This document shows positions 1 to 27,763 of a stretch of DNA of 32,054 bases, piece by piece. The notes below the pieces were generated by a model. The model was not told the DNA's origin, did not search any database, and was given only the letters and a program-made list of their open reading frames with translations. Location: IMG/VR virus record IMGVR_UViG_3300044623_000563, positions 1 to 32,054 of that record. The stretch is one strand, 5' to 3'. Made by a program: the position numbers and the translations under genes. The DNA is from a virus. Numbering within the stretch: position 1 is the stretch's first letter; every line of letters begins with the position of its first letter.

Positions 1-92
1 TCCCAAGTCCAACCTATATCTTTGCCTCTTTCAACTCCATTTGTTCTGAAATGGTCTAATTCGGTCTTTACGTTTTCAAGTCTTTTATACAT
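1..92 (-). CDS. replicative helicase, N-terminal fragment cut by the window edge
   Basis: The ATG at 90-92 opens the first 30 residues of the same protein that is complete at 31008-32003. It is split only because the circular genome was opened inside the gene. The start overlaps the TGA of the replication gene at 92-94 (ATGA), so the two are translationally coupled. Residue 23 (Lys) is AAA here and AAG in the right-hand copy, a synonymous change. It is not a separate gene. Confidence 0.9.
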   Translation of the reverse strand, partial: MYKRLENVKTELDHFRTNGVERGKDIGWTW

Positions 93-143
93 CAGTCAAT
101 TATTCTATTGTGAAATGCATAAATAATTTTCTCTTCAGGAGCG
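1..143. repeat. terminal direct repeat, left copy
   Basis: Bases 1-143 match 31912-32054 at a constant offset of 31911, with substitutions at left positions 21, 131, 140 and 143 and no indels. This is what a circular or circularly permuted genome looks like when an assembly runs past its own start. All four differences are third codon positions of the two genes that cross the junction, so the two ends probably come from slightly different genomes. It is not an inverted terminal repeat. Confidence 0.93.
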
Positions 144-727
144 GAAATTTCATCGTTCCAACACTTACCGTTTAACCAAGTTAATGGATTTTTACGGTAT
201 TGAATATCTGTATTTGATTTAACATACAATTTTGCTTGTGATAAAATAAATGGTATTTCTTCCATTTTTATTTTTCTCCATACTTTTAAACATTTTTCCT
301 TATCAATTTTTTTATTATAAATATTCCAAAATAAATCAAAATCTAAAGCGATAGCGTTAGTTAATTCTTTATGTTTATTACTTAATACTTTATTCTTTAT
401 TATTAGCTGCAAGGGTTCCTTAAAGCCCCCTTCAAGTACCCCTTCAAGGGTATCGTTGTTAACTTGTTGTTTTTCAGCTTTTATCATTGCACCCTCTTTA
501 CCTTTCGCTTTAGAATCAATAATAAAATCCATCGTCTTTTTGTAGTTATTGAAATATTTTGCAACAATTTTAGTTTTTGGTACAATAATATTGTCTTGAT
601 AATACTCAGAAATGCAAAAAAGCCATTCGATATAATGCTTTTCATTTTCGAAGAAATCTTTTGCAAATTGCAAGTCTTCAAAATTTACCTTAAAAAAAGG
701 TTTTACTATTTTAATTGGTTTATCCAT
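92..727 (-). CDS. replication initiation / helicase-loader-like protein
   Basis: A 211-residue protein starting at the ATG at 725-727; the frame extends to 751 but only with a TTG. The N-terminal half (about 1-90) looks like a compact winged-helix-type domain. The C-terminal third carries a pattern common in phage replisome organisers and O/DnaT-like proteins: an F-W-x-I-Y segment, basic helices, then NPLTWLNGKCWNDE near the end. This family brings the replicative helicase to the origin. Context agrees: its stop overlaps the start of the RecA-fold helicase by 4 nt. The start codon lies inside a small hairpin of an unusual leader (726-830). A promoter-like box lies at 835-842. The family call is by pattern only; an unrelated DNA-binding protein is possible. 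Confidence 0.6.
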   Translation of the reverse strand: MDKPIKIVKPFFKVNFEDLQFAKDFFENEKHYIEWLFCISEYYQDNIIVPKTKIVAKYFNNYKKTMDFIIDSKAKGKEGAMIKAEKQQVNNDTLEGVLEGGFKEPLQLIIKNKVLSNKHKELTNAIALDFDLFWNIYNKKIDKEKCLKVWRKIKMEEIPFILSQAKLYVKSNTDIQYRKNPLTWLNGKCWNDEISAPEEKIIYAFHNRIID

Positions 728-830
728 AATCTGTCCATTATTAAATGACAAAACCCCTTTAAACTTTCGAGGGACAGCTCTACTAATTCAAAAGGGTTTT
801 AAATAATTTCTTTTATAACCTGTCCGTTAT
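726..830 (-). promoter_or_regulatory. structured leader: two GGACAG-loop hairpins around a CTGTCC-loop hairpin
   Basis: On the minus strand 830-815 reads ATAAC-GGACAG-GTTAT and 741-726 reads ATAAT-GGACAG-ATTAT. Both are 5-bp stems around the same six-base loop, and the one differing pair (C-G against T-A) keeps the pairing. Between them AAAACCC at 800-794 pairs with GGGTTTT at 756-750. That longer hairpin contains GAG-CTGTCC-CTC (780-769), whose loop is the exact complement of GGACAG. The downstream small hairpin includes the first two bases of the start codon at 727. The long hairpin could also be a weak terminator. Role unknown; regulation of the replication gene is inference. Confidence 0.5.
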
Positions 831-3464: not shown

Positions 3465-3487
3465 TAAATCACAAAATAAGTTGAAAA

Positions 3488-3528
3488 ATACGTAGAACTA
3501 CGTAGATAAACTAAGTAGAACTACGTAG
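3488..3528. repeat. array of four CTACGTAG-like palindromes (operator candidate)
   Basis: The plus strand contains TACGTA at 3489-3494 and the 8-bp palindromes CTACGTAG at 3498-3505 and 3521-3528, plus the near-copy CTAAGTAG at 3511-3518. Centres are spaced 10, 13 and 10 bp. The block AACTACGTAG recurs exactly (3496-3505, 3519-3528). It lies between the endolysin stop and promoter P1, so a repressor or activator site is the simplest reading. The same palindromes could fold into a hairpin that ends late transcription. Confidence 0.7.
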
Positions 3529-3537
3529 AAAAATGCA

Positions 3538-24608: not shown

Positions 24609-25823
24609 TTAATTTAATATTTCGCCGTTGCGTTTAATTTCAAGTGTTGGGTCAAGTTTTTTCATTCGGTCAATTATTACTTGGCAATATTTAGGGTCTA
24701 ATTCCATACCGTAGCATTTTCTTTTAAGTTGGTGTGATGCTACCATTGTTGAACCAGAACCTAAGAAGAAATCAAATACTAAGCTATTTTCGTTTGAACT
24801 AATCTTCATTTCATTTGCAATTAATTCTATTGGCTTCATTGTTGGATGCAATCCACTTTCTCTACCAAATTCCAAACATCTTGAATAATTTACATCCTTT
24901 AATCCGTTGTTCCAAATTGCAGACTTTCTAAATAAAAGCAAATATTCTATATCTGGTCTATGTGAATCTCCTATTGGAATGGCATTTGGCTTTTTCCATA
25001 TTAACACATTAAATGAATAACCACTATCCCTTGCCCATACTAAATAATCTGGCAAAAGTTCCTTATTGCAAAATATGTAAGCGTTCAATTTGTTTTTTTC
25101 AAATATTAATGGCAATACTTGTAAAAATTCAGTTGGTTCAAAGTTTGCTATAAATTCTATATCTTTTCCTTGCTTTCTCAATCCTTGCCCAATATTTCCC
25201 TTACATCCTCCTTCAGTTTCTATTTTATATGGTGGGTCTGTAAATACCATATCTGCCTTTTGTCCGTTCATTAACTTTGCTACTTGGTCGCTATCCGTAC
25301 TATCCCCACAAAGTAATCTATGTTCTCCTATCTCAAACAAATCTCCTAATACAATATCCGTTTCAGTTCCGCCATCAGGTACTGCAAAGTCATCTTCTTC
25401 GGCTTCAAGTTCTTCAACTGTTAAATCAATCGGCAAATCCAATCCCCAATCCTCTAATTTTTCGGTGTCCCATTCATTCGCTAGTTCACTCCAATCGTGT
25501 TCACCAAAAGAAACATTATCCTTTATTGTGTACGATTTTAGTTTTTCAACACTTGTATTTACTGGTAATATTTTTGTAGGTACTTCTTTAATTCCTAATT
25601 CTTTACAGGCTTTCAGGCGCATATTTCCACAAATAACAACTAATTCACCATTATTATCGTAAGCAATAACCTCACGTAGTTCCAGCATTTCAGGGTCGTC
25701 TTGTAATGATTTTTTTAATTTAATAAATTTATCATCTTTCAAAAAACGAGGATTTTTAGGTAAACCTAATATTTGCCCCATATTGTTTTTTAAGTCTTTT
25801 ATTTTAATTAATTGTGTTTGCAT
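24609..25823 (-). CDS. ParB-domain DNA methyltransferase (beta class, N6-A or N4-C; 404 aa)
   Basis: Two parts. Residues about 1-110 form a ParB/Srx-like domain with VVICGNMRLKACKELGIKEV, the GxxR motif of that fold. Residues about 150-395 are an SAM-dependent amino-methyltransferase: TDPPYK (DPPY at 196-199) comes before FDFFLGSGST (353-359), the order of the beta class, with HPTMKP (326-331) between. It methylates an amino group of A or C in a target not predictable here. There is no matching restriction subunit, so it is an orphan enzyme, likely for protection against host restriction. Its start lies 20 nt inside the HNH gene. Confidence 0.88.
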   Translation of the reverse strand: MQTQLIKIKDLKNNMGQILGLPKNPRFLKDDKFIKLKKSLQDDPEMLELREVIAYDNNGELVVICGNMRLKACKELGIKEVPTKILPVNTSVEKLKSYTIKDNVSFGEHDWSELANEWDTEKLEDWGLDLPIDLTVEELEAEEDDFAVPDGGTETDIVLGDLFEIGEHRLLCGDSTDSDQVAKLMNGQKADMVFTDPPYKIETEGGCKGNIGQGLRKQGKDIEFIANFEPTEFLQVLPLIFEKNKLNAYIFCNKELLPDYLVWARDSGYSFNVLIWKKPNAIPIGDSHRPDIEYLLLFRKSAIWNNGLKDVNYSRCLEFGRESGLHPTMKPIELIANEMKISSNENSLVFDFFLGSGSTMVASHQLKRKCYGMELDPKYCQVIIDRMKKLDPTLEIKRNGEILN

Positions 25824-26880: not shown

Positions 26881-27219
26881 TTAATTTTCATTTGAATAAC
26901 GTAAAAAATAAATGTAGTGCAAATGTCCTATTGATTTTGTTGTTAAAATTCCTATTTCGTGTTTTCGTAGTTCCTGCTTTAATTTCCAAATGTTAATACT
27001 TTTTTGAACGCAAATCGTTGGTATAGCATCCGTTTTAAAGCCTATTGAATAACCTATCAAGGCTTCTTTATACTTTACGGTTATTATCGTTGCTAGCCAC
27101 TCTTCGGTTGGTATTCCATTTAGATATTTAGCGCACTTTTCCACGTGTTTTTTTCGAAAGATAATGTTTTTTATTAAAAAATCAAATTGCTTTTTACTTT
27201 TGCTAAATTTAATTTTCAA
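26881..27219 (-). CDS. hypothetical protein without an ATG start (112 aa)
   Basis: Open for 112 codons but containing no methionine codon at all; the only upstream starts are TTG at 27219 and CTG at 27234 before an in-frame TGA at 27241-27243. The sequence (CAKYLNGIPTEEWLATIITV, ALIGYSIGFKTDAIPTICV) looks like a folded alpha/beta protein, rich in Lys and Ile. It may use a TTG start, or be the remnant of a longer gene cut off by the repeat array. No family recognised. Confidence 0.45.
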   Translation of the reverse strand: MKIKFSKSKKQFDFLIKNIIFRKKHVEKCAKYLNGIPTEEWLATIITVKYKEALIGYSIGFKTDAIPTICVQKSINIWKLKQELRKHEIGILTTKSIGHLHYIYFLRYSNEN

Positions 27220-27267
27220 AACCCCTATAAACAGGGCGTTTCAGAGCGTTCAAAAAGTTTTTATTTC

Positions 27268-27610
27268 AAAGTATAAACTTTACTCAACCACTTTGAAAAA
27301 ACGAAAGTATAAATTGAAAGTACACACTTCATCTTATCACTTTACAAAAACACTTTTTAATTTTGAAAGTATAAAGTCAAAGCATACACTTTACAAAATG
27401 ACTTTTCAATTTTCAAAGTATAAACATAAAGTACTGGCTTTACAAAATGACTTTTGATTTTCTAAAGTATAAAGTCAAAGTACTAACTTTTGAATTGCAC
27501 TTTTTATTTTACAAAGTATAAAACCAAAGTGTTGACTTTAGTAAATGACTTTCAAAATTTAAAAGTAAAAACTCAAAGTATAAAGTTCATCAACACACTT
27601 TGTAAAAATG
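27268..27610. repeat. seven 49-bp units with internal dyads of AAAGT/ACTTT boxes
   Basis: Units start at 27268, 27317, 27366, 27415, 27464, 27513 and 27562, an exact 49-bp period without one indel. A full unit has AAAGT at offsets 1 and 14 and ACTTT at 23 and 36, a two-fold dyad centred on offset 20.5. The units at 27464 and 27513 have all four boxes exactly; those at 27366 and 27415 have one base off in one box; the outer units are more worn. The period is not a multiple of three, so coding is excluded. Spacers vary, so it is not CRISPR. It looks like an array of binding sites: replication origin, partition site or operator. Confidence 0.9.
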
Positions 27611-27763
27611 AAAAATTCACTTTTTAAGAAGCCCATAAACAGTGACTTGTAGCGTGTTGTTTTTTCTGTTTTCTTGAATTATAAAAAGTAATTTGATTTT
27701 TAATGATTTTTCAATAACAAAGCATAAGCGAAATTAAAACTTTGCCTATACGGATGTTATAAA
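27611..27763. other. rest of the 544-bp non-coding region
   Basis: The non-coding stretch is 27220-27763. Outside the array it holds a fading eighth unit (27611-27628), the element CCATAAACAG at 27632-27641 with a degenerate partner (CTATAAACAG, 27225-27234) on the other side of the array, and AT-rich sequence that could melt easily. I see no gene, tRNA or clear terminator in it. Confidence 0.6.

Follow-up and report, generated by a model that had tools for sequence, protein, structure and literature searches.

An array of 49-bp units between two dyads as the probable core of an accessory, horizontally exchanged cis-element in Bacteroidetes-type phages

Judging from sequence comparison, the array of AAAGT and ACTTT boxes described here is probably the core of an accessory, non-coding, protein-binding cis-element that is exchanged horizontally among Bacteroidetes-type phages. 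The array lies in IMG/VR virus record IMGVR_UViG_3300044623_000563, of which the whole stretch analyzed (positions 1 to 32,054) is called the window. In the element, two 27-bp dyads bracket 350 to 500 bp of 47- to 49-bp tandem units with AAAGT-type boxes in both orientations. Its geometry, the selection on its boxes, its dispensability, its exchange and the same architecture in unrelated phages were observed. The parts of the element and its borders in the window are as follows (coordinates, strand, feature).

26881..27219, minus strand, flanking gene with no assigned function; 87-aa core at 26881-27144; its 112-aa frame enters the element
27155..27186, minus strand, candidate promoter TTTG-19-TATCTTTCG, Bacteroidetes type by eye, predicted from sequence, just downstream of the element
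27177..27196, plus strand, outer inverted repeat, arm 1, 20 bp, 95% complementary to 27682-27701
about 27219..27243, minus strand, canonical dyad A, a 27-bp dyad of type TGAAACGCCCTGTTTATAGGGGTTTCA (window copy TGAAACGCCCTGTTTATAGGGGTTT)
27254..27623, no strand assigned, array of AAAGT (F) and ACTTT (R) boxes in the frame F-13-F-9-R-13-R-14, which makes 49 bp
about 27625..27652, minus strand, degenerate dyad B CTACAAGTCACTGTTTATGGGCTTCTTA, in direct orientation to A, kept in L014, L023 and L082
27682..27701, minus strand, outer inverted repeat, arm 2, 20 bp
27715..27759, minus strand, attC-like palindrome TAAC...GTTA at the element edge; the same palindrome ends small gene cassettes in L006, L008, L011 and L082
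27764..27973, minus strand, flanking 69-aa ORF; in sister phages the variable site has its fixed left edge at the end of this ORF

The candidate promoter coincides with the junction between shared and exchanged DNA. As a single strand, the dyad consensus TGAAACGCCCTGTTTATAGGGGTTTCA folds with -11.8 kcal/mol (z -3.7); hairpin folding of dyad B was no better than that of shuffles. A preliminary description had delimited the feature to the repeats at 27268-27610. The real feature is larger and takes in the dyads at about 27219-27243 and about 27625-27652 as well as the 20-bp outer inverted repeats. The array had been placed in the largest non-coding region, which is accurate, as it lies within 27220-27763, the largest gap without coding-strand ORFs; it had also been placed beside a small HTH gene, from which the 69-aa ORF separates it.

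The 49-bp period of the array stands far above chance. Within 27254-27623, 29 AAAGT/ACTTT boxes were counted against a mean of 6.05 and a maximum of 14 in 2000 dinucleotide shuffles, and pairs at the spacings first described numbered 36 (mean of 0.12 and maximum of 2 in dinucleotide shuffles). Autocorrelation was maximal at 49 bp (z 11.7) and 98 bp (z 10.6), and a tandem repeat check of period and phase with TRF called 27339-27583 with periods of 49 and 98. Seven units at 49-bp steps without indel had been described. The AAAGT starts do follow at exact 49-bp steps (27268, 27317, 27366, 27415, 27464, 27513 and 27562), but the box-order frame slips by 13 bp: the first two four-box units in frame are at 27255 and 27304 and the later five at 27366, 27415, 27464, 27513 and 27562, with one 62-bp step between 27304 and 27366. 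The 49-bp grid masks this slip because a box still lands on the grid. The full unit with exact boxes at offsets 1, 14, 23 and 36 exists in units 27464 and 27513 only, and most of the others hold three boxes. Measured from F to R and then from R to F, the distances are 22+27 for the window array and 21+27 for that of L175. Elsewhere in the window, a 23-bp tandem repeat of 2.2 copies (AAAAATAAGTAGAACTACGTAGA) lies between two ORFs at 3484-3533.

The array was aligned with that of L014, a phage with about 84% DNA identity that carries the same element. Differences fell on 4 of 120 box positions versus 41 of 182 spacer positions (Fisher p=1.7e-6), and by this measure the boxes are under selection while the spacers drift. 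Since the boxes are kept and the spacers diverge, the comparison supports a sequence-specific reading of the boxes. The array of L082 is shorter by 98 bp, which is exactly two units, and its register is intact. The box/spacer contrast and this in-phase loss of two units both argue for the initial proposal that the array reflects protein binding rather than recent duplication.

Among the 80 terminase relatives kept, the array was found in only L002, L014 and L023, many of the rest being fragments. The preliminary description, which had proposed the array as a candidate origin, partition site or master operator, had itself named relatives with both flanks and no array as evidence against such roles, and this is the situation in L007, L008 and L011, where both flanks remain at 92-95% DNA identity. 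Window positions 27166 and 27773 are only 115 bp apart in L007, and small ORFs with attC-like palindromes occupy the place of the array in L008 and L011. The 33.3-kb contig of L011 (G004) lacks the array, although its proteins are highly similar to those of the window (TerS, 92%; TerL, 98%; HTH, 97%; DnaA-IV, 95%; and the loader-like protein, 97%); it contains no dyad at up to 5 mismatches and no substitute large non-coding gap. On this genomic evidence the array is accessory and dispensable in sister phages. Consequently, the array is unlikely to be an essential origin, a centromere or a master operator, since the sisters keep flanks and proteins without it.

The same comparison bears on the binder. 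The DnaA-IV, loader-like and HTH proteins had been put forward as candidates, and all three are 95-97% identical in the array-less G004. A ParB-like/methylase protein (24609-25823) was also rejected, as in the array-bearing L023 the terminase region and the conserved block that follows leave no room for the gene between them, and G004 carries a distant version yet no array. Window 24609-25823 lies in a strongly variable stretch and encodes a DNA methylase (N6_N4_Mtase) whose N-terminal part looks ParB-like by eye; in relatives this methylase is either absent or only 43-47% identical. With no phage protein following the presence of the array, its binder is probably encoded by the host or tolerant of sequence change.

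The element is nearly identical between the window and L023 (548/549) and between the window and L082 (450/451), whereas the L023 terminase region is 81% identical to that of the window and the flanking gene beside the exchanged element gives a 67% match (L018-type allele), being a different allele of about 55% at the protein level. The element is near-identical while the adjoining gene and the terminase region are far less so, which means that it was exchanged recently as a unit. The array's place is a hypervariable cassette site, where an attC-like palindrome adjoins it; in L082 the element ends a run of small ORFs split by TAAC...GTTA palindromes resembling integron attC sites. A mechanical rule picked out 14 such palindromes in variable sites totalling about 11 kb, against 4 from 52 kb of control DNA; the window's own palindrome misses the strict rule, and its fold is not significant (z -0.35). 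Canonical attC boxes (GTTRRRY) were not recognized by eye. No tyrosine recombinase (PF00589) was found in 19 records, with a search that gave a match in 14/14 control genomes. CALINs, which are integron cassette arrays without an integrase, have been reported in virulent phages (PMC9892861). The variable sites resemble them because no PF00589 recombinase was found in the 19 records; the neighboring variable site likewise combines small ORFs and attC-like palindromes with no integrase. Unlike CALINs, the array element is free of ORFs, and the window copy has an attC-like site at only one of its sides. Candidate CALINs of these virulent-type phages, hypervariable and with no integrase, were noted at L082 1280-4450, L008 3400-4300, L006 1-1060, L011 6850-7520 and window 27715-27759, and several attC-like palindromes of the hypervariable site carry the loop CGTTTTAATG.

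Viral contigs were also searched with dyad A alone, with no array information in the query. These dyad-only searches retrieved five phage contigs of at least three other backbones (L139, L142, L144, L153 and L175), all with an AT-rich array between two dyads and a period of 47-48 bp (z 7 to 12). Over 1.7 Mb of fetched DNA, identity at lags 46-50 was bimodal, with 0.54-0.70 for dyad-bracketed arrays and at most 0.46 for everything else. Unit sequences differ among carriers; AAAGT or AAAGTA is enriched in the window, L014, L139, L153 and L175, and AAAGT enrichment is weak in L142 and L144. The dyads are in direct orientation in the window, L139, L144 and L153 and inverted in L142 and L175. The elements of L139 (G407) and L153 (G408) are non-coding and 79% identical over 676 nt, and the two contigs show no other DNA match and a sole protein match in TerL (27%). 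Between L139 and L144, element identity is 67% over 524 nt. As read from these matches, the element is exchanged horizontally between otherwise unrelated phages. Distinct groups are the window, L139/L153, L142/L144 and L175, and since L139/L153 and L142/L144 are related elements, the independent instances are fewer than the contigs.

Among 19 isolated Bacteroides phages with TerL identity of at least 98%, the motif search found 15, and direct inspection of the remaining four revealed a recognizable dyad variant. In the B. ovatus phages a single dyad precedes terS by about 100 bp, and the 600-bp gap around it holds phage-specific boxes of the GATGTAAAG, GATGGAAAG or TTGACATCG type. Since the 48-bp period is absent upstream of their terS, they share only the dyad and phage-specific boxes. 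Around the dyad in the 600 bp upstream of terS in the B. ovatus/kribbi phages L148, L149, L151, L156, L157, L158 and L163, the boxes (GATGTAAAG versus GATGGAAAG versus TTGACATCG) change together, as if tracking a fast-evolving binding protein. In Phocaeicola phage BV57P1 (L162, 895-1440), GGAACAC/GTGTTCC boxes are numerous in the gap that precedes the terminase genes, a further phage-specific set in a similar location. The phage represented by L154 (1150-1650) and L155 (700-1150) carries a repressor-like gene as well as a transposase-like ORF with an integrase core; the dyad is near the repressor, and the repeated boxes of the two contigs differ in concert (TTGGGGTGACA versus TTGGGTGTGCA). Matches to the dyad pattern in L172-L174 and L176 (GC 0.42-0.57), L140, L143 and L146 have no array, some being within ORFs, and were set aside as probable chance matches or ordinary hairpins.

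Beyond these contigs, no such array was present in the cultured Flavobacterium phages lotta8-1, snusmum9-1 and FPSV-S1, and the four-box pattern gave five single matches in 257 Gb of genomes, which were terminator-like hairpins with no array. Against 395 Bacteroidota genomes, the element had only AT-rich matches of 25-54 nt, and the dyad at up to 2 mismatches had one match, apparently within a coding gene. A comparison with 50,697 phage and 72,556 plasmid records gave no DNA match to the array, and the L139, L144 and L175 elements have no meaningful DNA match in phage and plasmid records. No description of the motif or of such arrays was found in the open-licence PMC papers searched.

Within the accessory-element reading, we tentatively place packaging or handling of phage DNA first, the element possibly serving as a pac-like terminase-loading or bending site, with regulation, a mobile element, a decoy and an origin behind it. 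A packaging role is suggested by the location of most copies near terminase or portal genes: in the window, the array precedes TerS by about 2.7 kb, the L139 and L175 elements are just 3' of TerL and that of L153 is upstream of TerS, the L142 element adjoins portal/connector genes and the L145 copy is beside the TerL start. The role is weakened because the sisters with TerS and TerL at 92% and 98% identity lack the element. Moreover, a near-identical array occurs beside a TerS of only 56% identity, and a pac or cos site would be required in every phage sharing the terminase, whereas G004 has no array. The terminase families also differ, being Terminase_6C/T7-type with DUF5681 in the window and Terminase_3 in L139, L153 and the B. 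ovatus phages. The element resembles pac and cos sites (SPP1/SF6 pac and lambda cosB-cosN) in its repeat boxes, which in most copies are near terminase or portal genes, in its AT-tracts and, as proposed, in bending and in a dyad-like cut site beside an oligomer-binding region. On the contrary, this element is dispensable in sisters with near-identical terminases, spans terminase families, and has a 47-49-bp tandem pitch and usually two dyads. For SPP1, a small terminase is reported that wraps bent pac DNA and has little sequence specificity (PMC4737164, PMC4856287), and small-terminase rings on bent DNA would fit the positions and AT-tracts observed here.

Other functions of a box array were considered against the same evidence. 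Iteron-type origins such as P4 ori/crr have short boxes of alternating orientation in multi-copy units. The array shares this trait, is AT-rich and single copy, and DnaA-IV, a possible phage initiator binding such iterons, is present in the window, G005, G009 and L175. However, sisters with the same replication proteins have neither the array nor a substitute large gap, the array-bearing G407 gave no DnaA-IV match, the initiator at window 92-751 was not found in the other array carriers tested, and the GC skew cumulates one way, with no turning point at the array. An accessory array with neither a co-occurring initiator nor skew evidence differs from iteron origins, and we consider this early proposal decidedly improbable. 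The gene at 92-751, which is replication-initiation-like, was not found in the closest sisters G002, G004 and G005 and is 56% identical in G006; by this distribution the replication module is swapped. Partition sites (parC/parS) are regularly spaced box arrays, and the array resembles them in its spacing. Its pitch is unlike that of known parC iterons, no partner NTPase was recognized in the window, and a scan of neighboring proteins recognized only HTH, ERF, exonuclease, HNH and DNA methylase, with no partition family, so that, with the array-less sisters, the centromere-like proposal was abandoned. Control of the promoter near 27155-27186, and of the genes that follow it, by an operator or enhancer array is unlikely: the promoter-like sequence is at most about 70 bp from the array and the boxes are under selection, yet array-less phages keep the downstream gene and promoter region, and the element adjoins other genes in L139 and L175.

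It is also unlikely that the element is mobile but non-autonomous, MITE-like or a non-coding cassette of the integron type, with boxes as recombinase-binding sites. The outer inverted repeats, the dyads on both sides, the adjoining attC-like palindrome and the different locations in L139 and L153 would agree with it; however, there is one copy per genome throughout and a single fixed site across the window family, the 19 records have no PF00589 recombinase, and TTAT occurs on both flanks with no clean empty site or target duplication seen. A decoy or sponge titrating a host or competitor DNA-binding protein seems quite unlikely. Such a function would suit a dense, mobile and accessory array that no phage protein tracks, but would not need an exact pitch and paired dyads, and no host protein was identified. 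The least probable reading, which we regard as very remote, is a repeat RNA bounded by terminator hairpins, for example a mimic of a type III antitoxin as in phage PhiTE, where the mimic is a repeat RNA. The period is within the range of type III antitoxin repeats and the consensus dyad folds well, but the spacers diverge freely, the element has no Rfam match, and structured RNA units are not supported by folding, as single units fold no better than shuffles (9 of 10 with z of -0.4 to -1.5; one of -2.4).

For the preferred accessory, protein-binding element, an oligomeric DNA-binding protein would assemble cooperatively, unit after unit, at a pitch of about 48 bp, like beads, and the dyads would serve as boundary or cut/anchor sites. 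In a weaker step, the element might then act in the packaging or handling of phage DNA. With somewhat less than even confidence, we propose that these arrays may form an undescribed class of horizontally mobile non-coding nucleoprotein-assembly elements. Such elements would combine paired 27-bp dyads with a 47-49-bp pitch that persists as the sequence diverges, and would serve unrelated phages with different terminase types through a binder that is encoded by the host or tolerates sequence change. The host of the window phage is likely Flavobacterium-like, since its nearest cultured relatives infect Flavobacterium (capsid 35%). The dyad offers a short searchable signature for culturable carriers, and natural sister pairs in which only one member has the array (window versus G004 or G002) are a ready control. 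A fixed-pitch non-coding element that moves between unrelated virulent phages would point to a shared protein machine in the hosts or in phage assembly, which annotation pipelines would miss because they look at genes.
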